64,000 nt of DNA from Streptococcus sp. LPB0220 (GTDB taxonomy: Bacteria; Bacillota; Bacilli; Lactobacillales; Streptococcaceae), in NCBI RefSeq assembly GCF_008727815.1, contig NZ_CP044230.1:1348001-1412000 (forward strand), read 5' to 3'. The notes beneath the pieces are model-generated. The model was not told where the DNA came from, searched no databases, and was given only the letters and a program-made list of their open reading frames with translations. The translations under genes and the position numbers were made by a program. Shown in pieces: positions 35,205-51,262 of the stretch; the stretch's first letter is position 1, and each line of letters opens with the position of its first letter.

Positions 35205-35801
35205 TTACTGTCCTTCTATTAATTTGTTGTACTCAATTTTCATATCCCCCAAGTTTTTCAGGGAATAACGGGAGCTTCCGTTTTTAAACCAAGTACCCAG
35301 GATGTATTGTTCGGCGACCTTCTTGCTTTGGTTTTTCAACCAAGTACGGTCTTTGCCATAGGCGGCAAGTTTCTTTAGAAAATCACTACCCTCTACTTCT
35401 TGATCATCCGCATAAAGATAGACTTCTTCTTGAATCAATGCTCTTTTTTTAGAATTGTATTTGAACATCATACGAACCGATACATTTTCTTTTAACTGAT
35501 ATTTATACCTATAAACCCATTCCGAACTGTCCCTAAACATCATGACGGATAGGTCTTCCTGACCACCAACGATTTTATCAGAATAGGGAAAAGTCTGAAA
35601 TCCTTCATCTTCCTTCCAAGGAGCTTCACTTTCGATTGTTTGAGTGTAGGACTTGACAATCATATTTCGCATCATCCCACCATTTTCAGAGTAAACAATC
35701 TCCTCCATGGGGTTCTTGAGACTCAGGTAGATTGCTAGCCAATAAAGAGCTAAAAGTAGGATAGGAGTAAGCCAGAGGAAGTGTTTTAGGTGTTTTTTCA
35801 T
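35205..35801 (-). CDS. Second TipC-type immunity protein, coupled to recJ
   Basis: 198 residues with the same anchor (LWLTPILLLALYWLAIYL) and ends as the 32072-32665 product: NPMEEIVYSENGGMMR at the front, GKDRTWLKNQSKKVAEQYILGTWF at the back. The middle (about residues 100-145) has diverged. Its ATG overlaps the recJ stop by 4 bp (ATGA), so it is translated from the recJ message and not from the toxin operon. An extra immunity gene without a cognate toxin may protect against a variant toxin of neighbours. Confidence 0.78.
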   Translation of the reverse strand: MKKHLKHFLWLTPILLLALYWLAIYLSLKNPMEEIVYSENGGMMRNMIVKSYTQTIESEAPWKEDEGFQTFPYSDKIVGGQEDLSVMMFRDSSEWVYRYKYQLKENVSVRMMFKYNSKKRALIQEEVYLYADDQEVEGSDFLKKLAAYGKDRTWLKNQSKKVAEQYILGTWFKNGSSRYSLKNLGDMKIEYNKLIEGQ

Positions 35802-38023: not shown

Positions 38024-38048
38024 CTAGCTTTTGGTCTCCTCTTTTTCT

Positions 38049-38063
38049 TATCTGAATATTATA
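38049..38063. other. Candidate left attachment core (attL) of the island
   Basis: TATCTGAATATTATA here is repeated exactly and in direct orientation at 50775-50789, just beyond the integrase terminator. It covers the recJ -10 box (TATAAT on the minus strand). Confidence 0.5.
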
Positions 38064-38086
38064 TCACATTGCATAATATAGTTGAA
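38058..38086 (-). promoter_or_regulatory. Promoter of recJ
   Basis: Minus strand TTCAAC, 17 bp, TATAAT with TG extension. If the attachment core is at 38049-38063, the -35 part is supplied by the island. Confidence 0.6.
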
Positions 38087-38163
38087 ATTAATTCGTAAAA
38101 ACCCCATAAAATAAGCATTTTCGGGCTATCTACTATTCAATTATACCGACTTAAACAGTTCAC

Positions 38164-38178
38164 AAAGTTCCTAAAAAG
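38164..38178. repeat. 15-bp direct repeat, island left end
   Basis: AAAGTTCCTAAAAAG, exact copy at 50692-50706 across the integrase stop codon. Flanked here by two GTTCACAAA 9-mers. Either an integrase arm site or an alternative attachment core. Confidence 0.5.
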
Positions 38179-38216
38179 TTCACAAAAAAATACCCCGTAG
38201 GGTATCTATTAAATAA

Positions 38217-38263
38217 TGAGTTCAGTAGGCAAGATTTAGCACCCTCACACGGTGCTTTTTTTT
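38217..38263 (+). terminator. R element 1: conserved motif plus terminator
   Basis: CAGTAGGCAAG then hairpin AGCACC / GGTGCT and eight Ts. First of three related elements (others at 40849 and 42665). The remaining bases to the next gene (38264-38420) hold nothing recognisable. Confidence 0.7.
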
Positions 38264-38420
38264 ATCAAGTATCATAGCCAGCATATGCCTATTCTCAGTG
38301 TAGTTTGTTCAATATTTGTAAAATATAATAAAACGCTTTATTGGCTCACTTAATTCATTAGCAATAAACAAACAGTGATTTCACCTCACTATTTCTTTTT
38401 AAAATAAGGATAAGATTATC

Positions 38421-38747
38421 CTACTTGTCTGATTCGTTAGCATTTTTTCCAAAAAGATAACCTGTCAATGAAAAAATTAATACTTTAATAACTTCTATAG
38501 CATTACTTGCTATATCAGATATTTTTCCACCATGACAAAAAGTTTCCAATAAATAAATTGCCATTATCAATCCAAGACAAATAATAAGTAGCCAGTGTCC
38601 TTTAATTGTATTATAGGTTTCCTTATTAATTTTTCTTTCAAGTATACTTGTTGCAAAATTATCATTTGCTTCTTTTTTTTGTTGTTGTGAAAACTTAGTA
38701 TTAGGAACATCAATTTCTGTTGTTAATTTATTTACTTCGTTAGGCAA
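38421..38747 (-). CDS. Small two-helix membrane protein, candidate PanT toxin
   Basis: 108 residues: hydrophilic N-terminal half (to about 52), then two membrane helices (GHWLLIICLGLIMAIYLLETF and ASNAIEVIKVLIFSLTGYLF). Not a family I recognise by sequence. It overlaps the upstream Panacea-domain gene by 8 bp, the arrangement of PanAT toxin-antitoxin pairs, in which several of the known toxins act on membranes. Toxicity is inferred only from this pairing. Confidence 0.6.
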   Translation of the reverse strand: MPNEVNKLTTEIDVPNTKFSQQQKKEANDNFATSILERKINKETYNTIKGHWLLIICLGLIMAIYLLETFCHGGKISDIASNAIEVIKVLIFSLTGYLFGKNANESDK

Positions 38748-39195
38748 TATAAGGCTCCTCTTGGAATATGTTACTGTCCTCTAAATATGGTTCATCATTT
38801 ATATTAGCTTTGTACCACGCAGTACCTGGTTGATGTGTCATTTCAGATAATCTTATACCATCAATCATTCCATAAGTTTTCCAAACATTATCAAAAATCT
38901 TTTTCACTACTGAACCTGCGGGGAGAGCAATAGTACTATACTTGTTATTTTCAAAATAGTAAAATTCTTTGATATGATTTGCACGATATTTTTTAAATAC
39001 GTTATAAACACTTCTAAGAACAGGGCCATACTGCCAAGTCTCAAAACGTTCGTCAAAAAGTTTTTCTTGCGTCTCTTTTAAATAATCTTTGTAGAAAATA
39101 TAGATCAATTTCTGTAACTTCATCGGCGTAATATCAATATCTTCTGACTTTGCTCTGTCAAGAAACGTATTTGCTACATCTAAAGCTGAAATCAT
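38740..39195 (-). CDS. Panacea-domain protein (DUF4065, SocA/GepA type), candidate PanA antitoxin
   Basis: 151 residues covering one Panacea domain: MISALDVANTFLDRAKSEDIDITPMKLQKLIYIFYKDYL … ERFETWQYGPVLRSVYNVFKKY, the conserved KLQKLIY and WQYGPV motifs. Panacea proteins are antitoxins paired with varied toxins and are frequent on phages and islands. GGAGG before the ATG. Its upstream region was hit by IS copy 2, which inserted next to a TATAAT box. Confidence 0.75.
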   Translation of the reverse strand: MISALDVANTFLDRAKSEDIDITPMKLQKLIYIFYKDYLKETQEKLFDERFETWQYGPVLRSVYNVFKKYRANHIKEFYYFENNKYSTIALPAGSVVKKIFDNVWKTYGMIDGIRLSEMTHQPGTAWYKANINDEPYLEDSNIFQEEPYIA

Positions 39196-39348
39196 TTTAT
39201 ACCTCCTCCTTTGATTACATCAAAATACTCAACAAAGAGATCGATGTTCACTATAATCATTTTTTTGTTAAATGAGTACATTAAAAAATTAAAATACCCT
39301 CACTGTAATTATATCACTGTACTGACCCCAAAAAGTTAGACAAATAAT

Positions 39349-40185
39349 TTAAGTTAAGGATTTAGTCCTGTATTGCACAGGACTAAGTCCTTTTAGTTTT
39401 ACCTTAATTCGTTTGTTGTTGTAATAGTCAATATAGTTTACAATAGCTTGTTCCAATTGGTTAAGTGACTTAAATGTATTCTCGTAACCATAAAACATTT
39501 CCGATTTCAAAATGCCAAAGAAGGATTCCATCATGCCGTTGTCTGGGCTGTTTCCTTTACGTGACATGGACGGTTGAATTCCTTTATCCTCTAAAAAACG
39601 ATGATAATACTGGTGTTGATACTGCCATCCTTGATCACTATGAAGAATTGTATTTGTGTAATGATTCTCAGTAAAGGCCTGGTCTAACATAGCTTTCACT
39701 TGTTCTAAATTCGGTGAAGTCGAAAGATTATAGGCGATAATTTCGCTATTAAAACCATCTAAAACTGGCGATAAATAAAGTTTTTGATTGCTTGCTGGAA
39801 TGGCAAACTCGGTCACATCTGTGTAGCACTTTTCCATTGGCTTGGTTGCTTCAAATTGGCGTTGAATAAGATTATCTGCTTTCTTACCAATCTCTCCTTG
39901 GTATGAAGAATACTTCCGTTTACGACGAATACGAGCACTTAAACCAAGGACCTTCATCAGACGTTGGACCTTCTTATGATTCACTACAAAACCACGATTC
40001 CTCAATTCAAGAGTCATTCGACGATAGCCGTAATTCCCTTTATGCTCAGTAAAAATAGATTGAATTTCAACTTTAACATCATAATCCTTATCGCTTTGAT
40101 CGAGCTGTTTTAAATGATAATAATAAGTTGAACGGGCAAGCTTAATAATCTTTAGAAGAATCTCTAAAGCAAACTCTGTTACCAA
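39349..40185 (-). CDS. IS3-family transposase OrfB (IS copy 2)
   Basis: 278 residues, identical to the OrfB of copy 1, with the full DDE set ([21 protein letters not shown]). Confidence 0.93.
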
Positions 40186-40697
40186 TCCTCGGACAATTTC
40201 CGTTTTTCTTCTTGCTCTTTTTCGTCCCTCAATCGGAGTTCTCTCAACTTTTTTAGAACCGCATTCTCCGCTCTCAAGTACTCATTTTCTGCTTGAAGAC
40301 GTTCTAGTTCTGTCATCTCTTCGGGTTTCTTCTTTGGCTTACGTCCCATTTTAGGTATCCTTCCTCTTGTTTTCTCAACAATAGTATACCCGTTTTTCTT
40401 ATATTGTGCTATCCAATTATGCAACATTCCAACACTTGGAAGAGCATAATCTAGAGATACCTTTATTTGTGAACGACTTTCAAGCAGAACTTTATCAATG
40501 ATTTCTTGTTTTAGTTCGGGAGAATAGTAACAATTCTTTCCTTTTTTGACGATTTCTATTCCATAACGATCAATCAATTTAATCATGTACTTAAGATTAG
40601 AAATGTTTATCCCAAATTGATTTGAAAGCTCTTTGAAGCTTCGCCCTTGTTTTTTATGTTCATAGATCTGAACTTTATCTTCATAAGTTAATTTCAT
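40179..40697 (-). CDS. IS3-family transposase OrfA (IS copy 2)
   Basis: 172 residues, identical to OrfA of copy 1. Slippery A-AAA-AAG is at 40248-40254 on the minus strand. Confidence 0.92.
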
Positions 40698-40848
40698 AAT
40701 AAAAACACCCCAAAAGTTAGATTTTTTTCTGTCTAACTTTTGGGGTGCAGTTCACACACTACACATGTTTTTTCTTTTACAATTTTGATTTTTATAATAA
40801 TTTCTTAATTATTATAGTTGCCAATAAAAAAATGTTTAATAATCAGAT

Positions 40849-40965
40849 ACAAGGCAAGATCCGGCACCCTCACACGGTGCTTTTTTAATTTTCAAAAATG
40901 GTAGACAACCGCGCACCAATGGGTGCTCGACCGCCTACCACATAGTTAAATTATAGCATATCTTG
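40849..40965. repeat. R element 2: motif, terminator and double hairpin
   Basis: Plus strand GGCAAGATCC, hairpin GCACC / GGTGC with Ts, then a second structure: outer arms GGTAG (40900-40904) / CTACC (40935-40939), inner arms GCACC / GGTGC around AATG. Read on the minus strand, TGCTATAAT (extended -10, about 40954-40962) precedes this double hairpin, which ends in ATTTTTG: a possible very short RNA. The same block is at 42665-42780. The remaining bases to 41218 hold no gene I can support. Confidence 0.7.
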
Positions 40966-41218
40966 ACCGTTTTTTCATGTAAAACAGGGTTTATATTATT
41001 GCCAATGATCTATAAACTCAAGTAAAGCTCTTTCCTTGCGCCTGTGATAGTTACTGCTTGAAATAGAAAATATTAAAAATTTATACCCATATTTTGCTTT
41101 AAAGGCTTAAGTGCTCTTTTTTATGAGAAATTGAAATCATCTCAGCATGTCAAGATTAGTAATTATAAATATAATAAATGACTAATCTATAAGTTTTTTC
41201 TCACATAGGTAATTTATT

Positions 41219-41416
41219 TCAATTTACGTCTTCTCTATCCATATTTGGATAGATTTTTTCATTGTTTATTATAAAATCTAAACATTCAATACAGGATTGT
41301 AAGTGAAACAATTCAATTCCTATAAATTCTCTGGATTGAGAGTTTAGTATTTCTTCACAATAGCGTTTTAAATGCCAAATGGTTTTTCTAATTTTTTCTT
41401 CTTTTAAATTAATCAT
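41219..41416 (-). CDS. Possible small protein of unknown function
   Basis: 65 residues, helical and charged (MINLKEEKIRKTIWHLKRYCEEILNS…). No clear ribosome site before the ATG, no recognised family. Lies in the cargo slot between R elements 2 and 3. Could be a chance frame. Confidence 0.35.
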   Translation of the reverse strand: MINLKEEKIRKTIWHLKRYCEEILNSQSREFIGIELFHLQSCIECLDFIINNEKIYPNMDREDVN

Positions 41417-41766
41417 AGGTTAATTGTACAGTAATTTATAATTTCATTGTCTTGATTGAGCTATTTGGTAGGAAATATAAACTATTTTGTTAAAAATATC
41501 AGGAATGGATTTTGGAAATAATCTATTCTGTAAAAAAATTATCTATTCGGAAAAGTAGAAGTGAATTTTCTTAAATACTTTGATTTTCTTAAATGTTTTG
41601 ATTTTTAAAAAATAATCTAAAACTATATTATAATCGAAAATGAAGTTTCGAGAAAATAAGTGTTTTTAGAAAGTTATTTTAGGTATTTTATAAAGTACAA
41701 TATTTCTTGCTTTAAATACTCACTAACTGGTATAATAATACTAAATGGTGAAATTAAGGAGAAATT
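41417..41766. other. AT-rich leader region of the lipoprotein gene
   Basis: No gene. Contains two tandem 18-bp units TTTTCTTAAAT-ACTTTGA and TTTTCTTAAAT-GTTTTGA (41566-41601) and the lipoprotein promoter. Confidence 0.55.
41707..41736 (+). promoter_or_regulatory. Promoter of the island lipoprotein gene
   Basis: TTGCTT, 18 bp, TATAAT with TG extension (TGGTATAAT). Confidence 0.7.
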
Positions 41767-42516
41767 ATGTTTAAAAAGGTAATATGTATAGTTCTTTCGA
41801 CAATTCTATTGGTGGGATGTTCTTCAAACTCAAAAAACACAAATTATGATAGTGAATTCCTTACCTCTTTATCAAAAGGGTTAGATAAAAGATGGAAGGA
41901 TACTGATAAATATCCAGATGAATCAGCAAAAAATTATAAATTATATATAAACGATGAATTAAATGAAGTTAAAGATTATGGTGATAAAAAATTCAAGAAT
42001 GATAAACTGAAAGAATTAGCTATCAGATATATCAATGTTCTTAAAGAGGGCAAGGAAATAGCTTCTAATTTTGGAGCAGATTCTTTTGAAGATCAGTGGA
42101 GTGAACATCAAAATAAACGTTATGAATTATTGGTTGAGATCAATAGTATTTCTGAAATTCCTGTACAAGATAAAGATGGATTAGGTGAAATACTGGCAGG
42201 CGGAAAAGAAGTAAAACGTGATAATGAAGTTCGTAAAGATTTAGAAAATATCATCAATTCTGCAGATTTTAAACAAGATGATAGTAATTCGTATTTACCA
42301 AAATACTCAGCAGTTGTTGAAAATACAACTGGATATGATATAGAGGCTTTAACTGTTGAAGTGAGTTTGTTTGATGAAAATGATGTCTTATACAATACAA
42401 CTTATATAAATGTAAACAATTGGAAAAAAGGTACAAAGGCTAAACTAGAGTTTCTTGATACTGATGACAAAGAAGGAACATACGAATTTTCATTGAAACA
42501 TTATGAAGTCAAGTGA
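41767..42516 (+). CDS. Island-encoded lipoprotein
   Basis: 249 residues. Lipoprotein signal with LVGC and lipidated Cys18, an acidic/lysine-rich helical middle (SLSKGLDKRWKDTDKYPDESAKNYK …) and a C-terminal beta domain (YSAVVENTTGYDIEALTVEVSLFDEND … YEFSLKHYEVK) that resembles FxLYD-type Ig-like domains. Surface lipoproteins carried by phages and satellites often block superinfection; that is an inference. AAGGAG precedes the ATG. AT-rich, own promoter. Confidence 0.75.
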   Translation: MFKKVICIVLSTILLVGCSSNSKNTNYDSEFLTSLSKGLDKRWKDTDKYPDESAKNYKLYINDELNEVKDYGDKKFKNDKLKELAIRYINVLKEGKEIASNFGADSFEDQWSEHQNKRYELLVEINSISEIPVQDKDGLGEILAGGKEVKRDNEVRKDLENIINSADFKQDDSNSYLPKYSAVVENTTGYDIEALTVEVSLFDENDVLYNTTYINVNNWKKGTKAKLEFLDTDDKEGTYEFSLKHYEVK

Positions 42517-42664
42517 TTCTCCGGTATTGTAAAAATTTGATGGCATAAGAGTTCTTTACAAGGCATTAATCCATGATTCTATGATAATTATTTTTTCTTC
42601 TATTCTCTTAGATTTTCTTGATATCTAAGCAAAAATAGAGCTTTTCAGCTCTACTATTTTACGA
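42517..42664. other. Gap after the island lipoprotein gene
   Basis: No gene. Contains a weak plus-strand hairpin TAGAGCT / AGCTCTA (about 42635-42653) that may end the lipoprotein transcript. Confidence 0.5.
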
Positions 42665-42782
42665 GTTCAGCAAGCAAGATCTAGCACCCCTCAAAGGGTG
42701 CTTTTTTTATCTTCAAAAATGGTAGGCGTCCGCGTACCAATGGGTACTCGAAAACCTACCACATATTCAATTATAGCATATT
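42665..42782. repeat. R element 3: motif, terminator and double hairpin
   Basis: Plus strand CAGCAAGCAAG, hairpin AGCACCC / GGGTGCT with Ts, then GGTAGG (42721-42726) / CCTACC (42755-42760) enclosing GTACC / GGTAC. Minus-strand TGCTATAAT follows as in element 2. The inner stem differs from element 2 at a pair (C-G to T-A) that keeps base pairing. From here to 43011 I see no supported gene. Confidence 0.7.
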
Positions 42783-43011
42783 TTATTATAAACAGTCCGA
42801 ATCTTATTGGAGTATAGGGAGTATTCGGAGTTTTCGGACGCCCTAAAAGAAAAAAAAACCGAATAGCTGAAAAAACTGACAAGATAGAGAAAATTAAAAA
42901 TGATAACAAGTTTTTTGAGTAACATTTTTCCCTATTGTGTTTAAAACCATAGCAAATGTTAGCATTTTTTTGTTTTTTCAGTGGGCCAATCACGCGCACT
43001 AATTATCTTTT

Positions 43012-43422
43012 CTATAAAATCTTCGCTAATCGTTCTTTTCCTTTTCTTAGGATCCGGTACATTGTTGGTACTGAAGTATCTATTTTTTCCGCCACATCCC
43101 AGTTCGGCAAGGCTCTGACATAGTATAAGTGTAATACTGTACGTTCTAACGCGTACGGGTTTTTATCGATCATTCTAACGCTTTCCAGACGTTCATTGAT
43201 AACCTTTTCTAGTCGTTCTTCCAAGTCTTCTTTCAACTTAATTGTAGAAACTATTTTGTTTTCAGCATTATTATTAGAACTTTTTTGAAGTGGTGAAGCG
43301 GAAAGATAACTACGCTTATATACCCCACTGTCAAGTGATTCTATTTCTAGTTTAAGCTCCTTTATTTCTTTATCTAGCCATTTTATATTTTCTAGCTTTT
43401 CAATTAATTGCTCTAATTCCAT
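43012..43422 (-). CDS. Phage-type sigma-like regulator (DUF1492 type)
   Basis: 136 residues: N-terminal coiled coil (LEQLIEKLENIKWLDKEIKELKLEIESL) and a C-terminal sigma-70 region 4-like helix-turn-helix (RTVLHLYYVRALPNWDVAEKIDTSVPTMYRILRKGKERLAKIL). This is the pattern of DUF1492/ArpU-like proteins near the end of streptococcal phage and satellite replication modules, where they are thought to control late expression. Confidence 0.7.
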   Translation of the reverse strand: MELEQLIEKLENIKWLDKEIKELKLEIESLDSGVYKRSYLSASPLQKSSNNNAENKIVSTIKLKEDLEERLEKVINERLESVRMIDKNPYALERTVLHLYYVRALPNWDVAEKIDTSVPTMYRILRKGKERLAKIL

Positions 43423-43454
43423 TTATGCCCCTGTCTTCTGAGTACTTTTTATCC

Positions 43455-43631
43455 TTATTGATAAATCACTAATAAGGTAGTCTGTACTGCCATATCTTCA
43501 CTACTGCCAAACGTTGCTTCTGAGATCTTCACATCCACCACTTGAACAGTGGCCATAAAGTCATTTACTTCTTGCTCAAATTCTTCTAATGATTGTTTAC
43601 AGCCACGGCGGATAAATAATTTTGTTTTCAT
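43455..43631 (-). CDS. Small phage-type protein (Cse60-like)
   Basis: 58 residues, MKTKLFIRRGCKQSLEEFEQEVNDFMATVQVVDVKISEATF … LLVIYQ, similar in plan to Cse60-family proteins (MKTK-F, VNxF, V-DIK). AAAGGAG 8 nt before ATG at 43631 decides the start; the frame extends upstream to 43709 into the iteron region without a site. Function unknown. Confidence 0.6.
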   Translation of the reverse strand: MKTKLFIRRGCKQSLEEFEQEVNDFMATVQVVDVKISEATFGSSEDMAVQTTLLVIYQ

Positions 43632-43674
43632 TTGTTTTTCTCCTTTTGTTTTAAATTTTAGACTTATTTCTAAA

Positions 43675-43927
43675 GGTAACTTGGTGGTAACCTGGTTGAT
43701 TCTAACCACGTTACCGCCAAAACCCTTGATATTACTGGATTGGTAACTAGGTTACTCGGGTAACGAGGTTTTCCTATACCCCTAATACTATTTTTTTACT
43801 TTATTTATTATTTTATTCTACCTCCCTTAAACCACGTTACCTACGTTACCGTATAGGGTAAAACCTTGGGGGAGTAGGGTTTAACCGGTAACTTGGTAGT
43901 ATGTTACCCCCTAGTTACCACGTTACC
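43675..43927. other. Iteron-type replication origin of the island
   Basis: Eleven exact GGTAAC/GTTACC hexamers plus one near-match in 253 bp: starts at 43675, 43686, 43710, 43742, 43751 (GTTACT), 43759, then 43836, 43845, 43887, 43903, 43914, 43922. Longer form CACGTTACC recurs three times. The two clusters flank an AT-rich stretch (about 43766-43830). It adjoins the Rep-type gene, the layout of satellite origins such as those of SaPIs. Confidence 0.8.
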
Positions 43928-43931
43928 TTTT

Positions 43932-45524
43932 TTAAAGAAAGGGATCATCTTCAAATAGACTTAATTTCTTGTCTTCCACTTCCTCATGTGGAATAAAACT
44001 ATTAAATCGTTTTGGGTTTGCAACTCGGTAAACTGCCATTACTTCCCCATTAATTTTCTTCTTAGCTGATTCAACCCCTATGGTTTGCAAAGCCTTGCCC
44101 ATTTTGACGTTATTCTTCCCATAAGTTTTTTCACAAATGGCTATAAGATCAGTTCCGTTTGACCTTACCACATAATCAGAACTCTGCAATTCATTTATCA
44201 AATACATCTGAAAGTCATCTAAGGTTTCATTACCGTTATATACTTCTACGTCTTTCCAAATGAACTTTTCCCCTTGCTCTTTGAAATAATCTAGGCTAGC
44301 CAATAAAAATCCTATACAGCCCTCTATTTTGGGAGTTTTATCTTGGTTAGTAAATGCTTCCCAATATTTTTCAAAGGCCTGTTCACGTTCCAAATCAGTC
44401 TCCCCTTTCGGTCTATCCTTGTATTGAATAAGTACTTTACGCCCATTCATTTCATCAGATAGAGATACATTCCTATTAGTATCAATACATAGAACACTAG
44501 TTAGATATACCAAGCCTTGGTTACCTCCCACGTTACGCCCTAGATGGGTTTTCTCGGTTGCTATGATCTTTAGCACGCGCTCTATTTTATCCCCTATAAT
44601 ATCGCCCTGTTCAGTTGCTAAGGCCATCTCTCCACCAGAAAACGTAGCCCAGGCGTTGCTGGCTTCAAATCCCCCAGCGGTAAGGCTATCTAGTTCTACA
44701 TCAATTTTATTAAACAGACCGGATAAAGCGATATGACGCAAGCCTTTTCCTGTCCTAACTCCGGATTTTGCAAGAAAGAAATTGGTCTTACTCTTTAAAC
44801 CACTAGCAACCTGTACCATATAATAGGTCTGTAACAGTGCATTGTGCAGGCTATCAGGATCATCAATAACATAGGTTAGAAACTCCATTGCTACTTCTTT
44901 GCTTTCTATAGCTTGTTCATATTCTACAGGATAGTATTTGAAAAATGATCGTTGGTTATCTATTGTAGTGCGCGTGACGGTGTGGGCTTCCAAATCAATT
45001 ATAAAGTCTTTACCAGCGATTTTATAAAGTTCTAACTTCCTCACTGGTTCAACATGAAAATGTTTGTCAATTCCTTTTAGAATATCCACCACGTAACCAA
45101 TATCATTTTTAAACCCGTAAAACCTTGCAAGGGTTATTTCATCTATTAGTTCTGCTTGCTGGTTGTTTATATCGTAAATACGATTATCAAATATCACATA
45201 CCTACCCAATAAATAATCAATTACCATCTTGGCAAAGGTGGGGAACGTGGTCTTATATGTTACTTTAAGTTCGCCATTAGTTTTTATTTTTACACTGCTA
45301 CAAGAGATAAATTTTTTCTGTTCTCCATTCCTGTCAGCAATATACATCACTTCACTTTCAGGTATTAATATCTTTGTTTTATTATGTTCAATATAATTAA
45401 AACTATCTAATTGATATATATTAGAAAGTTGCTTTTTATAATCAGCCTTATGCTTTGACTGGCCATAATCTTCATCAGTCCAATTCAAGGAAACGACTTC
45501 TTTCAACAGATCAATTATATTCAA
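43932..45524 (-). CDS. Island replication protein, primase/helicase-type
   Basis: 530 residues. A P-loop is visible in LAKSGVRTGKGLRHIAL, followed by SGGEMALATEQGD (Walker B region) and LTSVLCIDTNRNVSLSDEMNGRKVLIQYKDRP, the pattern of D5/SF3-like helicases of phages and satellites. The N-terminal half has no primase motif I can identify. Start is TTG at 45524 with GAGGGG 9 nt upstream; no ATG or GTG fits. Its gene ends 5 bp from the iteron array, so it is the likely initiator/helicase acting there. Confidence 0.78.
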   Translation of the reverse strand: MNIIDLLKEVVSLNWTDEDYGQSKHKADYKKQLSNIYQLDSFNYIEHNKTKILIPESEVMYIADRNGEQKKFISCSSVKIKTNGELKVTYKTTFPTFAKMVIDYLLGRYVIFDNRIYDINNQQAELIDEITLARFYGFKNDIGYVVDILKGIDKHFHVEPVRKLELYKIAGKDFIIDLEAHTVTRTTIDNQRSFFKYYPVEYEQAIESKEVAMEFLTYVIDDPDSLHNALLQTYYMVQVASGLKSKTNFFLAKSGVRTGKGLRHIALSGLFNKIDVELDSLTAGGFEASNAWATFSGGEMALATEQGDIIGDKIERVLKIIATEKTHLGRNVGGNQGLVYLTSVLCIDTNRNVSLSDEMNGRKVLIQYKDRPKGETDLEREQAFEKYWEAFTNQDKTPKIEGCIGFLLASLDYFKEQGEKFIWKDVEVYNGNETLDDFQMYLINELQSSDYVVRSNGTDLIAICEKTYGKNNVKMGKALQTIGVESAKKKINGEVMAVYRVANPKRFNSFIPHEEVEDKKLSLFEDDPFL

Positions 45525-45525
45525 A

Positions 45526-45687
45526 TCACGCGCCCCTCCCTTCTTTGTACTTTTGCATTTTCTTCTTCAGTTTTTTAAGCCTTTTTTGTTCCTTCAGTTG
45601 GTCTAAGGTTGGCGAGTGATCCTTATAATTCTTTTTATCGTGATAATGCCCCCTGCCTTGCGCTGGGTGTACGTTGTATCTACCCAT
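45526..45687 (-). CDS. Small basic protein upstream of rep
   Basis: 53 residues, MGRYNVHPAQGRGHYHDKKN … LKKLKKKMQKYKEGRGA, very basic, with a helical C-terminus. The ATG overlaps the end of the upstream regulator gene by 8 bp and its stop lies 1 bp before the TTG of the rep gene, so it is embedded in a coupled series and probably translated. Unknown function; nucleic-acid binding is plausible from charge. Confidence 0.65.
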   Translation of the reverse strand: MGRYNVHPAQGRGHYHDKKNYKDHSPTLDQLKEQKRLKKLKKKMQKYKEGRGA

Positions 45688-45955
45688 TTTCCACCCCCAA
45701 AAAGATCAAGATATCACTCACTTTATAGTACGCTTTGCGCGTATCTTCCAAGGGTGGTTGGTAACGTTTCAAGCCTTTTTCTTCCCAGCGTTTCAGTGTG
45801 TTGTCTGTTACGTTAAGTTCATCTTTTAACTGCTTTGCTGTCATAAGGCCTAATAGTCTTTGTTCTGGTTGGCTTTTAGATTTTAAAAAATTATCTACCA
45901 GGTCTAAAAGTGCGTGTGATAATTCAAATTCACTTTCTTTACTCAAACTAAACAT
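45680..45955 (-). CDS. MerR/excisionase-type helix-turn-helix protein
   Basis: 91 residues. C-terminal winged helix: MTAKQLKDELNVTDNTLKRWEEKGLKRYQPPLEDTRKAYYKVSDILIFL, characteristic of DNA-binding excisionase/MerR-like proteins of mobile elements. AAGGGGG 6 nt before the ATG at 45955 sets the start; upstream in-frame codons to 46003 lack a site. Overlaps the preceding small gene by 8 bp. Confidence 0.7.
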   Translation of the reverse strand: MFSLSKESEFELSHALLDLVDNFLKSKSQPEQRLLGLMTAKQLKDELNVTDNTLKRWEEKGLKRYQPPLEDTRKAYYKVSDILIFLGVENG

Positions 45956-46127
45956 TTTCATCCCCCTTGATTCCGTTAAGCGAAATCTCTCCACGAATTT
46001 CAAAAAGAATGTCAGAAATGTTATTTAAACCAGCGGTTAGAGTTTTTTCACCCTCCATAATTTCAGCTAAGAAATCTAGTCGATTCATTGCCTTATCAAT
46101 CTTGTTAATCAATTCTGTTTTGTTCAT
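45948..46127 (-). CDS. Small coiled-coil protein
   Basis: 59 residues, MNKTELINKIDKAMNRLDFLAEIMEGEKTL … GIKGDENV. GGAG 6 nt before the ATG at 46127. An upstream extension to 46274 would run through the candidate small-RNA locus and has no ribosome site, so I reject it. Function unknown. Confidence 0.55.
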   Translation of the reverse strand: MNKTELINKIDKAMNRLDFLAEIMEGEKTLTAGLNNISDILFEIRGEISLNGIKGDENV

Positions 46128-46197
46128 GTTGTTCTCCAATCGTTCTTTAAATAATTCAGTACTAAGTCTTATTCGACTTTTAATAAACACCAAAGAA

Positions 46198-46206
46198 TGG
46201 TATAAT
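46198..46206 (+). promoter_or_regulatory. Promoter of a candidate small RNA
   Basis: TGGTATAAT on the plus strand, opposite to the surrounding minus-strand genes. Confidence 0.55.
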
Positions 46207-46212
46207 TTAACC

Positions 46213-46312
46213 ATAAAAATATTTCCTAAAACCCCTACGGCTTGCCTGCTGTCCTGTGTTTTAGTTAATTCCATTTAAGGCTTGTTAGTTGGTTGCTACA
46301 GGCCTTTTTTTT
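46213..46312 (+). ncRNA. Candidate island small RNA, about 100 nt
   Basis: Bounded by the promoter above and a strong terminator (AAGGCTTGT 46277-46285 / ACAGGCCTT 46298-46306, eight Ts). Inside, CTAAAAC / GTTTTAG (46226-46232, 46258-46264) closes a hairpin presenting TACGGCTTGCCTGCTG (46236-46251). That 16-mer occurs exactly once more, in the hairpin before the integrase gene. No plus-strand reading frame here. Confidence 0.6.
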
Positions 46313-46318
46313 GTTGCT

Positions 46319-46504
46319 TCAATAATCTTTTGCAAGCCATTCCATGGCTTTTCTATAAATTGATGTTCTCACTTCACCACAAGTGATTAATTTTTTATAC
46401 GTTACAGGATTTACCCCAATCTCTTTACTTGCTTCTAATGATGTCAGTAACTTGTCAGCTTGTTTTCTCCTCAATGCTCTTGATTCTAAATTACTTACTT
46501 TCAA
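46319..46504 (-). CDS. Small Cro-like regulator divergent from the repressor
   Basis: 61 residues, MKVSNLESRALRRKQADKLLTSLEASKEIGVNPVTYKKLITCGEV…, with a helix-turn-helix-like LEASKEIGVNPVTYKKLI. Start is TTG at 46504 with AAAGGAGG 7 nt upstream. Divergent from the CI-like gene across an operator region: the lysogeny-switch arrangement of phages and satellites. Confidence 0.6.
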   Translation of the reverse strand: MKVSNLESRALRRKQADKLLTSLEASKEIGVNPVTYKKLITCGEVRTSIYRKAMEWLAKDY

Positions 46505-46522
46505 AATAAGTCCTCCTTTCTG

Positions 46523-46566
46523 TAAAGTTTTATTTTACAAGTTTATTTTATAAAGTTTTTCTTTAC
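46523..46566. promoter_or_regulatory. Operator repeats between repressor and Cro-like genes
   Basis: Two 16-bp units, TAAAGTTTTATTTTAC (46523-46538) and TAAAGTTTTTCTTTAC (46551-46566), each with GTAAA/TTTAC-type dyad character, starting 28 bp apart. Likely repressor binding sites. Confidence 0.6.
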
Positions 46567-46591
46567 TTATCAAGAGTTAATAAAAAAAAAC

Positions 46592-46620
46592 TTTACTTTC
46601 GCTAAAAAAATAATTATAAT
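46592..46620 (+). promoter_or_regulatory. Promoter of the repressor gene
   Basis: TTTACT, 17 bp, TATAAT; start codon 18 nt downstream. Confidence 0.65.
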
Positions 46621-46638
46621 GATACTGAGGAAAGAAGT

Positions 46639-47148
46639 ATGAATAATTTAAAAAAATTACGAAAAGAAAATGGATTGACCCAACAACAACTAGCTGACGA
46701 ATTAAATAGCATTTATAAGAACACAAAATCTTATTCAAAAATGAACATTTCAAACTGGGAAAATGAAAAACACTCAATCAGTACATTGAACGCTGAACAA
46801 CTATCAAGTTTTTTTGATGTTCCGATTAGCTATCTATTGGGATATAGTGAATATCCTGATGAATTTTTTGCATTTTCTGAATTGAGAAAGCAAAATAAGG
46901 ATGATTGGGCCAATATAGCAAAATCTAAAATTTTATCCTTAGTAACTAAAACAGATTTAGAGAAAATTAAAGACAAATATATCAAAATGGATGGACCTGA
47001 ATCAGATTGGGAAAGTTACACAATGCTTCTAAGTGCTATAGGGTCATTACCAGATAAAGAAAGCAAAATGTTAACTTTGTTTGCGTTGTTAAGTGATCAA
47101 AAACAGGATTTATTACTAGAGCTAGTTCAAACCATGGTAGATGAATAA
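46639..47148 (+). CDS. CI-like XRE-family repressor
   Basis: 169 residues. N-terminal XRE helix-turn-helix (LKKLRKENGLTQQQLADELNSIYKN … MNISNWENEKHSISTLNAEQLSSFFDVPISYLLG), C-terminal helical domain without a visible Ser/Lys protease pair, so it is probably released by an anti-repressor and not by self-cleavage. GAGGAAAG precedes the ATG. Expected to keep the island silent. Confidence 0.82.
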   Translation: MNNLKKLRKENGLTQQQLADELNSIYKNTKSYSKMNISNWENEKHSISTLNAEQLSSFFDVPISYLLGYSEYPDEFFAFSELRKQNKDDWANIAKSKILSLVTKTDLEKIKDKYIKMDGPESDWESYTMLLSAIGSLPDKESKMLTLFALLSDQKQDLLLELVQTMVDE

Positions 47149-47276
47149 ATGAACCCACGCGCTAATGGTTTATATTGATAATCGCAAAAAGTAGAAACGA
47201 GGTAATAAAAATGGCAAAATGAAACTAGAAAAATAAAAGATTAGGATATTATTTAAAACTTTTAGGAGAAAAAATT

Positions 47277-48092
47277 ATGAAAAAGAAAATTATTACTACT
47301 GCTGTTGTTTTAGCTCTTGCTACTGGTGGAGCGGGCTACTATTTCTTATCTTATGCCCCTCACCAAACTGCAATTAGTCACTTTGAAAAGTCTGTTGATA
47401 CACTTAATGAGAATAATAAAGCAATTGAAAAACAAATTGCTGATACTGAAAAAATCATAAAGGAAAAAGCTGAACCATTAAGAGCAAAGACTTTAGAAGA
47501 TTTAAAAACTGCTGTCAAAGAAGCAAAAAATTCTATTCGTAAAGCTCCAAAAATGGAAAGCGATACACAAAAAATTGAAGATCAAGCGAAAGAAATTGCA
47601 AAACCTGTCGATTATTCTGAAACTCAAAAAAACATCAATGAGAAACTAACAGCTTACCAAAACAGCGTTAAGCAACTAGCACAGATTACAAATCCCAAAG
47701 ATTCTTTTATTGAGGAACGATTGAAAGAAGTCGATACAATCCAAGAAGTGCAACACGCTACAGAAGAAAATGACCCAAACGGCTTATTAAACAAACAAGG
47801 AGGCTATACTGCTTCTATCTATTTTGTAGATAACCAAGTAACTGAACCTGTTGAGGGTGCTAATCTAGTAGATAAGGGAACTGAAGCAGGAGGTGCTATT
47901 GAAGTATACAAGACCAAAGAAGAAGCTGAAAAGAGAAATACCTACCTATCAGCATTTGACGGTGGAGTATTAGACCCTGGATCCCATTACGTGTATGGTA
48001 CTATCGTAATTCGTACCTCATACCACCTCACTGCTAGCCAACAAAAAGCCTTAACTGAAAAAATTTACAATAAACTAATTGAACTAAAATAA
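47277..48092 (+). CDS. Anchored/secreted coiled-coil protein of phage-island type
   Basis: 271 residues: basic start and membrane helix (KKKIITTAVVLALATGGAGYYFL, about 2-24), a coiled-coil region (about 35-145, KSVDTLNENNKAIEKQIADTEKII …), and a globular C-terminal domain (GGYTASIYFVDNQVTEPVEGAN … SHYVYGTIVIRTSYHLTASQQKALTEKIYNKLIELK). I recall similar proteins in lysogeny modules of streptococcal phages. A role in excluding other phages is plausible but not shown. AGGAG precedes the ATG. A tiny broken frame (ATGGCAAAATGA) lies in the 128-bp gap before it. Confidence 0.7.
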   Translation: MKKKIITTAVVLALATGGAGYYFLSYAPHQTAISHFEKSVDTLNENNKAIEKQIADTEKIIKEKAEPLRAKTLEDLKTAVKEAKNSIRKAPKMESDTQKIEDQAKEIAKPVDYSETQKNINEKLTAYQNSVKQLAQITNPKDSFIEERLKEVDTIQEVQHATEENDPNGLLNKQGGYTASIYFVDNQVTEPVEGANLVDKGTEAGGAIEVYKTKEEAEKRNTYLSAFDGGVLDPGSHYVYGTIVIRTSYHLTASQQKALTEKIYNKLIELK

Positions 48093-48446
48093 TTCTTATA
48101 AAATAAATATTATCGCCTATTCTAATTTCAAGGATTATATATCAAACCTTAGCAAACCTTAGCACTTCTATGCTTTAAGGCCTCCGAAAACTCCGATTTA
48201 AACAAAAAAGACGTGTTTTCTCTTTGTTCGCTCTTTGATGATATGGAATAGCGGGCAATATTAGCCCCATATTCGCCAATAGCAACCATCTTTTCATAGG
48301 CCTATTGTGCAAAAACAGGGGAAATTGAAGAATAGAAAGCTGATTTTACAAACTAAAGCGCAATAATTGGGCGAAATTGACAAATAGAAAGGAGCAACCA
48401 TAGACTATGGAACAATACAGAAGAGATATTTTAAAGGTGAGGAACA
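48093..48446. other. Gap before the PemK/MazF-like gene
   Basis: 354 bp. Contains a direct repeat GAAATTGA-AGAATAGAAAG / GAAATTGA-CAAATAGAAAG (48321-48339 and 48373-48391) and an 18-codon frame at 48407-48463 that overlaps the next gene but has a poorly spaced ribosome site. No antitoxin gene. Confidence 0.55.
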
Positions 48447-49220
48447 ATGGATATCAAAAATAAAAAAATACTAAAATCAGCTAAAAATTTTGAACAAATC
48501 TACTCAATATCACAATCAAATAGACGAAGCAATAAGTTTAATTTTTTACCAAATTGGCTAGATAAAGAATCAAATTTATTTTTAGAAGAGGTAAATCATT
48601 GTAAAAAATCCTATTACAGTTTCAAACGGGGTGCCTTAATTTTTGTAGATTTTGGAATTAATATTGGTTCTGAATTATCAAATAGACACTGGGCCGTTGT
48701 CCTAAATAAAAATGATTCTCCGAAATCAAGAAATCTGACTGTACTTCCAATTAGTTCAAAAGAAAAAAAGTTTTCTGTTATGATTGACGAAGTTATACAA
48801 CAAAAATCTAAAAGATTCTTATTACCTATTCTTGACAAAGTTGGTTTTGATTATTTTTCAATTATTCATTATGCACTTACAGAAATTACTCCTTTTGATT
48901 TAGGGAGTGCAAAAGAAATCTATCAGGAATTTTTGATTCAATACGGAGATGTTTACAATTCAGAATCAGCTAAAAAAATCTATGGTAACGGTGCAGGGAT
49001 GGAAAAAGTGGAAAACACTACTAAAAAATTAAAAAATCTTGTTAACCATTATCAACGATTTAATAAAATTTCCTACGCAAAATGTGACCAGATAAAAACA
49101 ATTAGTAAAGACAGAATCATTTACATAAACGAATTGGATCCTTGCGGAAAATTGAAGGTCAATAATGACACCCTAGATAGAATTGATACAAAATTAAAAG
49201 AACTTTACCTAAAAGATTGA
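48447..49220 (+). CDS. PemK/MazF-like domain protein without adjacent antitoxin
   Basis: 257 residues. The PemK/MazF fold is suggested by KRGALIFVDFGINIGSELSNRHWAVVLNKND, TVLPISSKEK and, near the end, YAKCDQIKTISKDRIIYIN … LDRIDTKLKELY. A long insertion (about 120 residues) and an N-terminal extension of about 55 residues make it twice the usual toxin length. The family comprises RNases. No small antitoxin gene lies on either side, so it may be regulated differently or serve as a defence effector. GAGG 4 nt before ATG. Confidence 0.65.
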   Translation: MDIKNKKILKSAKNFEQIYSISQSNRRSNKFNFLPNWLDKESNLFLEEVNHCKKSYYSFKRGALIFVDFGINIGSELSNRHWAVVLNKNDSPKSRNLTVLPISSKEKKFSVMIDEVIQQKSKRFLLPILDKVGFDYFSIIHYALTEITPFDLGSAKEIYQEFLIQYGDVYNSESAKKIYGNGAGMEKVENTTKKLKNLVNHYQRFNKISYAKCDQIKTISKDRIIYINELDPCGKLKVNNDTLDRIDTKLKELYLKD

Positions 49221-49242
49221 CAGTTATTTAAATTTAATCTAT

Positions 49243-49332
49243 AATTAAGTTACTTTGAGGTTTACCCTCATATTTTTTAAACTTTGAGCCTCAGCGCTCC
49301 AGGGAAGTAGCTTAATTGTTACTTCCTTTTTA
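49243..49332 (+). promoter_or_regulatory. Candidate terminator/antiterminator between the PemK-like gene and int
   Basis: Terminator GGAAGTA / TACTTCC (49303-49309, 49320-49326) followed by Ts. Its 5-prime arm also matches AATTAAGTTACTT (49243-49255) through AAGTAGCTTAATT (49305-49317), 12 of 13 bases, giving a mutually exclusive alternative fold. Confidence 0.5.
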
Positions 49333-49487
49333 TTTTATAAATAAAACTCTTGAAATATTGGTGTCTTTTCAAACCCCATATATGCCCCATATCCGTCTTG
49401 TTTTTATTCTGGTACAATTTACCGTCTAACTCCTTAAAATCGAATACAGGGCAAACTGTGAAGCCCTAGCATGATATAAACCACAAA

Positions 49488-49532
49488 CTAAAACCTTTAC
49501 GGCTTGCCTGCTGATGAATTAGAAAGGTTTAG
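49488..49532 (+). promoter_or_regulatory. Integrase leader hairpin covering the ribosome site
   Basis: CTAAAACCTTT (49488-49498) pairs with AAAGGTTTAG (49523-49532), burying the AAAGG site used by the int ATG at 49536. The loop displays TACGGCTTGCCTGCTG (49498-49513), the same 16-mer as in the small-RNA candidate. Confidence 0.6.
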
Positions 49533-49535
49533 ATC

Positions 49536-50702
49536 ATGAATATTACAGAATACAAAAAGAAAGACGGTACAATAGTGTACCGCACCAGCTTATATCTTGG
49601 TATTGATTCAATCACGGGTAAGAAGATTAAAACAACCATTTCAGCTCGTACCAAGAAAGAAATTAAGAACAAGGCTTTACAAGCAAAAGTTGAATTTGAA
49701 AAGAATGGTGCAACTCGTACCGCTTTTACTCAATTTGAAACATACAGCGAATTACTAGATAGTTGGTGGGAAACTTACGCACCCACTATCAAAACAAACT
49801 CTCAAATCGCTATCAAGTCACAGATAGAAAACTATTTACGCCCTGCTTTTGGATCGTACAAACTAGATAAATTGACCCCTGCCATCATTCAGCAACAAGT
49901 GAATAGATGGGCTAGAGATTATAACCAAAATGATGGGGGCTTTAAACGATATGGGCAACTCCATTCCTACAATAAGCGCATATTACAGTATGGAGTTTCA
50001 TTACAAGCGTTAAAGTCCAATCCTGCAAAGAATGTACTAGTTCCCAAAGTCAAGACAGATAAAGCAAAGATCAAGCATTTTACAGATTCTGAGTTAAAAC
50101 AATTCTTCGAATACTTGGATAGCTTGGATCAAAAAAGATTTAAAAATCTCTTCTGTGTCACTCTTTACAAGTTCCTGCTTGCTACTGGTTGCCGTATTAA
50201 TGAAGCTTTGGCGCTGGAATGGGCTGATATTGATCTTGATAATGCTGTTGTTCACATTACAAAGACACTTAATTATAGACTTGAAATTAATAGTCCTAAA
50301 TCAAAATCTAGCTACCGTGATATTGATATTGACCCCAAAACTGTTTCTATGATGAAACAATATAAACATAGACAAACTAAAGAGGCTTGGATACTTGGAA
50401 GAACTGAAAAAGTGGTCTTTTCAGATTTTATCCATGAATACCCAAACAACCGCACTCTTCAAGCAAGATTAAAAATACATTTTAATCGGGCGCAAGTTCC
50501 TGACATTGGTTTTCACGGTTTTCGACACACTCACGCTAGTTTGTTATTAAATGCTGGAATACCATACAAGGAACTCCAGCACCGACTAGGACACTCCACC
50601 TTATCCATGACAATGGACATATATAGTCACCTCTCAAAAGAGAGTGCAAAAAAAGCCGTTTCAATCTTCGAAACGGCACTAAATAATATCAAAAGTTCCT
50701 AA
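49536..50702 (+). CDS. int: Tyrosine recombinase (phage-type integrase)
   Basis: 388 residues. N-terminal arm-binding domain (about 1-55), core-binding SAM-like domain (about 60-165), and catalytic domain with Arg220 (ATGCRINEALALEW), His327 and Arg330 (FHGFRHTH), His353 (LGHSTLSM) and nucleophile Tyr363 (MDIYSH), all intact. Integrates and, with an excisionase, excises the island. The stop codon lies within a 15-bp repeat shared with the island left end. Last gene of the island. Confidence 0.93.
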   Translation: MNITEYKKKDGTIVYRTSLYLGIDSITGKKIKTTISARTKKEIKNKALQAKVEFEKNGATRTAFTQFETYSELLDSWWETYAPTIKTNSQIAIKSQIENYLRPAFGSYKLDKLTPAIIQQQVNRWARDYNQNDGGFKRYGQLHSYNKRILQYGVSLQALKSNPAKNVLVPKVKTDKAKIKHFTDSELKQFFEYLDSLDQKRFKNLFCVTLYKFLLATGCRINEALALEWADIDLDNAVVHITKTLNYRLEINSPKSKSSYRDIDIDPKTVSMMKQYKHRQTKEAWILGRTEKVVFSDFIHEYPNNRTLQARLKIHFNRAQVPDIGFHGFRHTHASLLLNAGIPYKELQHRLGHSTLSMTMDIYSHLSKESAKKAVSIFETALNNIKSS

Positions 50703-50706
50703 AAAG
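50692..50706. repeat. 15-bp direct repeat, island right end
   Basis: AAAGTTCCTAAAAAG, identical to 38164-38178; contains the int stop codon. Confidence 0.5.
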
Positions 50707-50720
50707 GAGAACATTTTTCA

Positions 50721-50766
50721 CTTAAAGATACGTTAATCCCTTATGTATCAGGGCTTTGACGTATCT
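50721..50766 (+). terminator. Terminator of int
   Basis: AAAGATACGT / ACGTATCTTT with an inner CCCT / AGGG pairing; Ts and As follow. Confidence 0.7.
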
Positions 50767-50774
50767 TTAAAATA

Positions 50775-50789
50775 TATCTGAATATTATA
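50775..50789. other. Candidate right attachment core (attR) of the island
   Basis: TATCTGAATATTATA, identical to the repeat over the recJ -10 box. On the minus strand it reads as TGTTATAAT, a now orphan extended -10 box that would have faced recJ before insertion. Confidence 0.5.
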
Positions 50790-51262
50790 ACATGAAAGCC
50801 AAAAATGGCGGGATATAAAAGGTCGACTTATACAAAAACCAAAATCAACATTTTTCGTTATTTTTGTTGCATTTAACTTGACTTATCACACTAAAAGAAT
50901 ATAATAATGTTGATAATAATCTTTTAAATATGCAATGGGATGATTATTCTGTTAAGTTTGCACTGCTTATTATCATTTTATATTATGAAGCGTAAATTTC
51001 TTCCGTTTTTCTATCGAATCATTGTTTTTAGAAAGTTTGTTTCAGGTCCAACCAATCCTCTAGTATGGACAGACTAAAGATAGGATATTGAGGTATGCCC
51101 CCATATTTTCTCAATAGAGGTAAGGTCCTTCTTCTCTAAATACATGTTCAAATAAAGCAACTGATTGTATGGAGCAAAGATCAGGAGTTTTTCAGTTTTA
51201 GGAGATATCACTATATAGAAAAACTTTACGAAATTTATGCAAAAGAAAGGAAATGAGGCCAA
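50790..51262. other. Long leader region of the adhesin gene
   Basis: 473 bp with no gene I can support. Contains the promoter at 50878-50905 and an inverted repeat TATTGAG / CTCAATA (about 51088-51118). A minus-strand frame (51074-51262) is not convincing. Confidence 0.55.
50878..50905 (+). promoter_or_regulatory. Promoter of the adhesin gene
   Basis: TTGACT, 16 bp, TATAAT. This implies an untranslated leader of about 350 nt unless a weaker promoter nearer the gene is used. Confidence 0.6.

Follow-up and report, generated by a model that had tools for sequence, protein, structure and literature searches.

How a mobile element can occupy the promoter of a host gene, and what then becomes of that promoter, is the question raised by positions 38049-50789 of the 64,000-nucleotide stretch of Streptococcus sp. 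LPB0220 DNA analyzed here (contig NZ_CP044230.1, positions 1,348,001 to 1,412,000; hereafter the window), where an island of 12.7 kb lies directly upstream of recJ. A sequence-only reading had described this island as a satellite resembling the phage-inducible chromosomal islands (PICIs). Database comparison bears this out: the segment 43012-50702 is 97.5% identical over 7,691 bp to the entire record of the satellite phage Javan378 (MK448461), and each of the remaining 34 phage records recovered by megablast matched 10% of the query or less. Positions 38049-50789 are a well-delimited phage satellite of a known class, and it is not new, as its near-identical relative Javan378 is already in GenBank. 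The host of Javan378 is S. parasanguinis POW10, and its nine annotated genes run from int to the DUF1492 gene; compared with the island, the record has no ends, flanks or cargo (38.1-43.0 kb). From its name we take Javan378 to come from the streptococcal satellite survey PMC6813308, the main text of which does not name S. parasanguinis. Partly from the Javan378 match, we take the genome studied here, that of an oral streptococcus, to belong to the S. parasanguinis group. We consider it likely that a satellite of the Javan378 type entered the recJ -10 box by tyrosine recombination, exchanging the upstream half of the promoter and leaving the gene transcribed.

As in Gram-positive PICIs, the element combines an integrase and flanking direct-repeat attachment (att) sites, a divergent control module of the repressor/Xis type (a CI-type repressor and a divergent MerR/Xis-like protein, with a Cro-like open reading frame recognized by position) and a replication gene beside a predicted iteron origin (a phrog_5609 helicase and 12 iteron-like words). 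Among the island proteins scanned with Pfam, PHROG and other family libraries there was no match to capsid, portal, terminase, tail or lysis families, in keeping with the earlier description, and none to own small terminase or capsid-size redirection families, which only some PICIs carry. The close match to Javan378 places the island among the streptococcal satellite prophages of the Javan series, and its location 5' of recJ corresponds to the integration of SpyCI-type islands 5' of DNA-repair genes. One locus in IMG/VR (L344) reached 82% integrase identity, the others listed having at most 64% over their best segment.

Integration at the recJ -10 box

The place of integration is a matter of direct observation, from a duplicated core that starts with the -10 hexamer of recJ, from empty sites, and from a related satellite at the same site in another host. 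The core is an exact pair of 15-bp repeats, TATCTGAATATTATA, found at 38049-38063 and 50775-50789. At up to two mismatches the window holds three copies against 0.28 expected by chance, and the outer pair are the only exact copies (n = 2) in the whole 2.13-Mb genome, the reversed control giving none. In the direction of recJ (35798-38023, minus strand, encoding RecJ_OB, DHH, DHHA1 and ssDNA-exonuc_C domains), the attL core at 38049-38063 (minus strand) reads TATAATATTCAGATA, which starts exactly with the -10 hexamer TATAAT and continues for 9 bp; on the island side, positions 38065-38066 supply the TG that belongs to the extended -10 element. The attR core at 50775-50789 (minus strand), taken together with 50790-50792, retains the old extended -10 element of recJ, TGTTATAAT, which now faces the int terminator. 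A second exact 15-bp pair, AAAGTTCCTAAAAAG, is located further inward at 38164-38178 and 50692-50706. Both repeat pairs and the insertion at the recJ -10 box had been claimed beforehand, and all are confirmed.

We sampled recJ promoters from 284 genomes using the pattern TGNTATAATATTCAGATAAG at up to two mismatches, which was found in 89 of them. Forty places picked as likely recJ promoters were read and, together with G030, G302 and the window, make up 43 recJ loci (5 of the 40 stretches were shorter than 16.1 kb, ending with their contigs). Promoters of recJ that diverge strongly from the pattern would escape this sampling. In all 43 loci recJ adjoins the pattern match, and a relative of the integrase (E 1e-5) occurs in the stretch examined at two of them, the window and G302. 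A group of 18 genomes is defined by RecJ identity of 97% or more, measured for the most part across the first 360-400 residues, and 17 of them lack an island at recJ. Their promoters read CATGATATAAT (9/17) or CATGTTATAAT (8/17), and the island junction reads TGTGATATAAT. At the empty site of G030 both flanks meet at the core: its recJ side corresponds to the window as far as 38066 (94.6%), and its other side does so from 50775 onward (89.6%); upstream of the empty promoters the sequence varies among strains. The sequence-only reading had named empty-site junctions in advance as the place where its att assignment could fail, and these junctions match the outer repeat, so that the assignment survives.

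G302 carries a satellite at the same recJ place with the core TATCAGCATATTATA at both of its ends, and this version of the core is also present at the empty sites of G063, G216 and G254. The cores thus co-vary with the host, TATCTGAATATTATA occurring twice in the window and TATCAGCATATTATA twice in G302, which argues strongly against a chance repeat. The satellite of G302 is a mosaic relative of the island, with 93-94% identity in the integrase, 82% in the DUF1492 protein and 42% over 69 residues in the repressor, and with no match to the window helicase.

The inner repeats correspond to a feature shared by the ends of related satellites. In all four satellites compared (the window, G302, G186 and G187, the last two described below), the block TTTTTAGGAACTTTGTGAACTG is found at the left end and AAAAGTTCCTAAAAAGGAGAAC at the right end, and since these blocks recur at both ends of all four, we interpret the inner repeats as integrase arm sites, as had been proposed. 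The left arm-type repeat (38164-38178, plus strand) is conserved in G302, G186 and G187, and the right one (50692-50706, plus strand) overlaps the last codons and the stop codon of int. Between int and attR, a hairpin at 50722-50770 folds whichever way it is read (-23.5 and -20.2 kcal/mol) and could terminate transcription from int as well as from the displaced recJ promoter.

The left end of the island (38064-38200, minus strand) contains arm-type repeats and what would be an outward-facing upstream promoter half. Empty recJ promoters have the form TGnTATAAT without a clear -35 element, and the island end likewise supplies TGn and no better -35. By a crude count of matching hexamer positions, the best -35 of the island side scores 3 of 6, those of three empty sites score 3, 3 and 4, and that of the host half at attR scores 3. 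The earlier proposal, that a new recJ promoter draws its -35 half from the island, is not supported. Given that neither side has a recognizable -35 and both have the TG, we read this promoter as one of the extended -10 type. The integration event would have swapped its upstream half, with the old half now at attR pointing into the int terminator. Because TGn precedes TATAAT on the island end as well, recJ probably retains a working promoter and is probably still transcribed. The base preceding TATAAT is A at 9 and T at 8 of the 17 empty sites, and it is A at the island end; the A in TGATATAAT at those nine empty sites could be a scar of excision or a plain mutation, which would look the same.

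The same end at other genes

A search of the genus with the left end (38045-38265) found matches in 75 of the 284 genomes. This segment is 89% identical in G302, and 77-84% identical copies adjoin pflA, metK and an Snf2 helicase gene. In 17 loci that were read, the junctions lie at recJ (2), metK (11), the Snf2 helicase gene (2), an efp-like gene (1) and no named gene (1). The efp-like locus has a left end without the promoter part, and its gene is one that we presume to be efp. The junctions at recJ, pflA, metK and the Snf2 gene all have the form TGnTATAAT.

At pflA (identified by TIGR02493, slightly under its cut-off on a fragment), two of 22 genomes are occupied, both with the junction TGTGATATAAT, and the 20 empty sites read TGTTATAAT (18) or TGATATAAT (2). 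The two occupants are satellites of S. parasanguinis CC87K and S32 (G187 and G186; loci L082 and L081), which have the same left and right ends as the island and integrases 82-84% identical to its own. The window helicase has no match in these two loci, and the CI-type repressor has a 42% match over 69 residues in S32 and none in CC87K.

At metK (TIGR01034), at least 240 nt of the left end are present in 13 of the best 30 of 284 loci, that of the present genome included; three more have a weak match of 48 nt and 14 have none, among them G064 with little upstream sequence. All carriers fall within the 18-genome group (13/18). A satellite body is absent at metK: on comparing the present genome (G000) with G191, homology breaks off and is regained 317 bp further on, at the -10 box, and G191 has 186 bp of other sequence in that place. 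A match to the SAM-III riboswitch (33.8 bits, gathering threshold 45) begins just past the -10 box. In the present genome the end in question (G000:C1:906440-906860; L230:11440-11860) has no int, and it contains the palindrome described below, terminator-like hairpins and arm repeats directly 5' of the SAM-III match. At the Snf2 gene, which was identified on a fragment and below cut-off as the pilus-regulating Snf2 helicase NF053675, 5 of 22 genomes carry 91 nt or more of the left end, one carries 13 nt and 16 carry none; within the 18-genome group it has five carriers. There were no island proteins beside the Snf2 gene in the 20-kb stretches of G239, G241 and G183 or in the stretch of G184, and neither metK nor the Snf2 gene has a full satellite in the loci examined.

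These observations suggest a wider account, to which we give an even chance. A clade of satellites with integrases 82-100% identical would use the extended -10 element of housekeeping promoters as attB, with an attP that carries TGTGATATAAT, and their ends would persist as host promoters after loss of the body. Exchange of the upstream half without killing the promoter would open to the integrase a range of genes with little in common besides TGnTATAAT. Already in the explanation favored above, the left end would act as the upstream half of a promoter at pflA, where a satellite with its integrase is attached, and in integrase-less form at the Snf2 helicase gene and at metK just 5' of the SAM-III riboswitch; on the wider account, the body would later have been lost from the latter two and the end have stayed behind.

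Alternative explanations and known islands

Several points weigh against the explanation we favor. Promoter function is deduced from sequence, with hexamer counts as crude as those above. By these counts the satellite end scores higher for the -35 than some empty forms at genes other than recJ (4 against 2 and 3 at metK, 4 against 3 at the Snf2 gene), though not at pflA (4 against 4), so that there may be a mild gain of -35 at such genes. The pflA carriers share their ends and integrase with the island and little else that was compared. The Javan378 record has neither flanks nor cargo and so does not give its integration site. Helper phage, packaging and excision were not seen; judged by its gene content, the island would replicate by means of its helicase and iterons, be controlled by CI and Xis, and be packaged by a helper phage.

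The opposite outcome for recJ, a recombination gene, would be a switch in which the integrated island silences it and excision during growth or stress turns it on, with a conditional DNA-repair phenotype. In S. pyogenes, according to PMC4129442 and PMC3430984, SpyCIM1 acts in this way, switching mutL off while it is integrated, and related islands occur at uvrA and recF. However, mutL is there severed from a promoter upstream of mutS, whereas at recJ the -10 box and TG are retained, as they also are in G302 and at pflA, and we regard such a switch as unlikely here. A decayed, immobile satellite retained by chance appears similarly improbable: an IS3 element lies inside the island, no link to a helper was found, and the integrase-less ends at metK and the Snf2 gene suggest decay of satellites in this species, yet the integrase, repressor, helicase and DUF1492 frames are open, the att cores are exact, presence is polymorphic, and a satellite of another strain is 97.5% identical. 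We also consider it unlikely that the integrase-less ends are something other than leftovers, namely a host leader captured by the satellite or a separate small repeat. The absence of int near the metK ends, the exchange of about 317 bp (G000) for 186 bp of other sequence (G191), which is replacement rather than simple insertion, and the lack of a full satellite at either gene in the loci examined speak for this alternative; but the ends carry arm-type repeats, terminator-like hairpins and mostly the palindrome, as satellite ends do, and at metK the end is missing from 5 of the 18 group genomes.

Integration at the -10 box with recJ left transcribed can be set beside published islands. The targets in PMC4129442 are mutL, uvrA, manA, rpsD, recF and metE, and recJ does not occur in that article. 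Like SpnCI and SmiCI at the uvrA promoter and SpyCI at mutL (PMC4129442), the island sits 5' of a DNA-repair gene; it differs from them in having recJ as its target and a core that starts with the -10 box. In SpyCIM5, a cryptic promoter within the broken int rescues mutL (PMC3430984), which resembles the present case in that an island-borne promoter feeds the interrupted gene and differs in that here the att end itself would supply the promoter. The use of several sites has parallels in SmiCI, whose integrases have 98% homology and which is located at either manA or uvrA (PMC4129442), and in pneumococcal satellites of integrase category I, which occupy five chromosomal locations (PMC6813308), no shared -10 box being reported in the section on them. 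Satellites of S. thermophilus are described as excising (PMC13376191). Among the articles listed by the literature search, none described a satellite located at recJ or this clade targeting -10 boxes, though the insertion-site list in Supplementary Data 3 of PMC6813308 may include recJ. Streptococcal islands before repair genes are known. The present one has a target, recJ, not found in the literature examined; its att design links integration to the -10 box, an extended -10 is retained on both sides, and integrase-less ends precede other genes of the host group. Together these features offer a directly testable explanation for the use of different genes by closely related integrases, and for the way in which satellites could leave promoters behind.

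Gene content, hairpin modules and surroundings

Inward from attR, the plus strand encodes the integrase, a MazF/PemK-like protein, a coiled-coil-like protein and the CI-type repressor, and the minus strand then encodes a small divergent open reading frame, the MerR/Xis-like protein, the helicase, the iteron-like cluster and the DUF1492/ArpU-type regulator, followed by cargo up to attL. The tyrosine integrase (49536-50702, plus strand) has the domains PF00589 and PF14659 and is 99% identical in Javan378. The MazF/PemK-like protein (48447-49220, plus strand) matches PF02452 (2.1e-11), phrog_1412 and phrog_1936, its best PHROG label being antitoxin mazE-like. A 720-bp stretch that includes most of its gene (48624-49343) is 91.6% identical to three full-length phage records from S. 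pseudopneumoniae (Javan433, Javan439 and Javan440), which points to exchange between phages and the satellite. The membrane-anchored, coiled-coil-like protein (47277-48092, plus strand) is 93% identical in G302 and G186.

The helix-turn-helix repressor of CI type (46639-47148, plus strand) matches PF01381 (5.7e-11) and phrog_8; of the CI/Cro-type switch proposed earlier, this part is upheld, and the Cro-like part, a divergent reading frame of 61 residues (46319-46504, minus strand), is recognized by position, with no Pfam match. The integrase, excisionase-like protein, helicase-type Rep and DUF1492 regulator of the sequence-only reading are each borne out by family matches. These are PF13411 (5.3e-6), phrog_10458 and phrog_66 for the MerR/Xis-like helix-turn-helix protein (45680-46003, minus strand), phrog_5609 (E 3.5e-181) for the phage-type DNA helicase (Rep; 43932-45524, minus strand), which is 90.9% identical in Javan378, and PF07374 (8.5e-11) and phrog_36 for the DUF1492/ArpU-type regulator (43012-43422, minus strand). 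The best match of the helicase among solved structures had E 0.15. The candidate replication origin (43676-43930) contains 12 GTTAC/GTAAC iteron-like words (in 43676-43926) around and beside an A+T-rich stretch (33 bp at 91% A+T); every other non-overlapping 295-bp segment of the 64 kb has at most three such words, which supports the iteron origin suggested earlier. A reading frame of 84 residues (43455-43709, minus strand) matches phrog_17627 (2.3e-4), a PHROG without known function.

The cargo comprises a lipoprotein-like protein of 249 residues with an FxLYD domain (41767-42516, plus strand; NF038353, phrog_34415), an IS3-family insertion sequence (39318-40754, minus strand; orfA 40179-40697, orfB 39349-40185), an antitoxin-like SocA/Panacea-domain protein (38740-39195, minus strand; PF13274 3.9e-19, NF047745 below its cut-off) and a reading frame of 108 residues with hydrophobic stretches (38421-38747, minus strand), placed by position and with no family match. 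The last two (38421-39195) are a possible toxin-antitoxin pair. The IS3 element, the SocA/Panacea and MazF/PemK-like genes and the repeated hairpin modules are absent from the sequence-only reading. In a plasmid search, the best place in each of seven records falls inside the IS3 element. PADLOC gave matches for two of eight proteins, both of a general helix-turn-helix or coiled-coil kind.

Three hairpin modules lie on the minus strand. The first (42633-42785), after the DUF1492 gene, consists of TGCTATAAT, 7 bases, a 41-nt palindrome and then a plus-strand followed by a minus-strand terminator-like hairpin, both of which recur beside attL; the second (40841-40964) has TGCTATAAT, 8 bases, the palindrome and a plus-strand terminator-like hairpin; the third (38188-38266) is partial, with two terminator-like hairpins, one per direction, and no 41-nt palindrome. 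In 18 distinct copies, the -10-like word 7 or 8 bases before the palindrome is TGnTATAAT (6), TGCTACAAT (1), TGTTATCAT (10) or TATTATTAT (1). Across 18 sequences, 98.5% of the cells of the palindrome are paired, and changes on both sides affect 13 cells; shuffled versions give 5.7, none of 500 reaching 13, and slid versions give 0-2. Support for pairing is genuine but narrow: such changes involve only two of 18 pairs, as in 441 of the 500 shuffles. A DNA palindrome would look alike, and the module could be a small RNA gene or only terminators with a palindrome. The Rfam family RF02591 scores 43 bits on the minus strand of the first module (gathering threshold 64) and 19 bits at metK; in the S. 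pyogenes satellite Javan519, a record that stops at a coding sequence, no Rfam family matched at E 0.1 or better. Querying phage records with the palindrome found only Javan375 and one chance-level match, and a longer query found only five satellite records. A role as packaging site was considered and found no support, the exact pattern of the palindrome and the arm block having no match in viral contigs.

The genome also contains a prophage at about 672-692 kb (G000:C1:672000-691990, L424; 20 kb read) with a PBSX-type terminase (TIGR01547), an SPP1-type portal (TIGR01538), a major head protein and a tape measure protein. Profile searches of the genome with PF04860 (portal) and PF03354 (terminase) gave no match, and PF04466 gave one, inside the prophage; as this match proved the prophage, the two negatives did not mean absence of phage. 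None of 12 proteins (island genes and neighbors) and no island DNA matched within the 20 kb read, and packaging of the island by this prophage is a bare possibility. Beside the island, 51263-55453 encodes a large surface protein in which the streptococcal pilin isopeptide linkage domain is matched by six stretches. The first 445 residues of this protein are encoded next to recJ in G030, too, and past the end of the island in G302.

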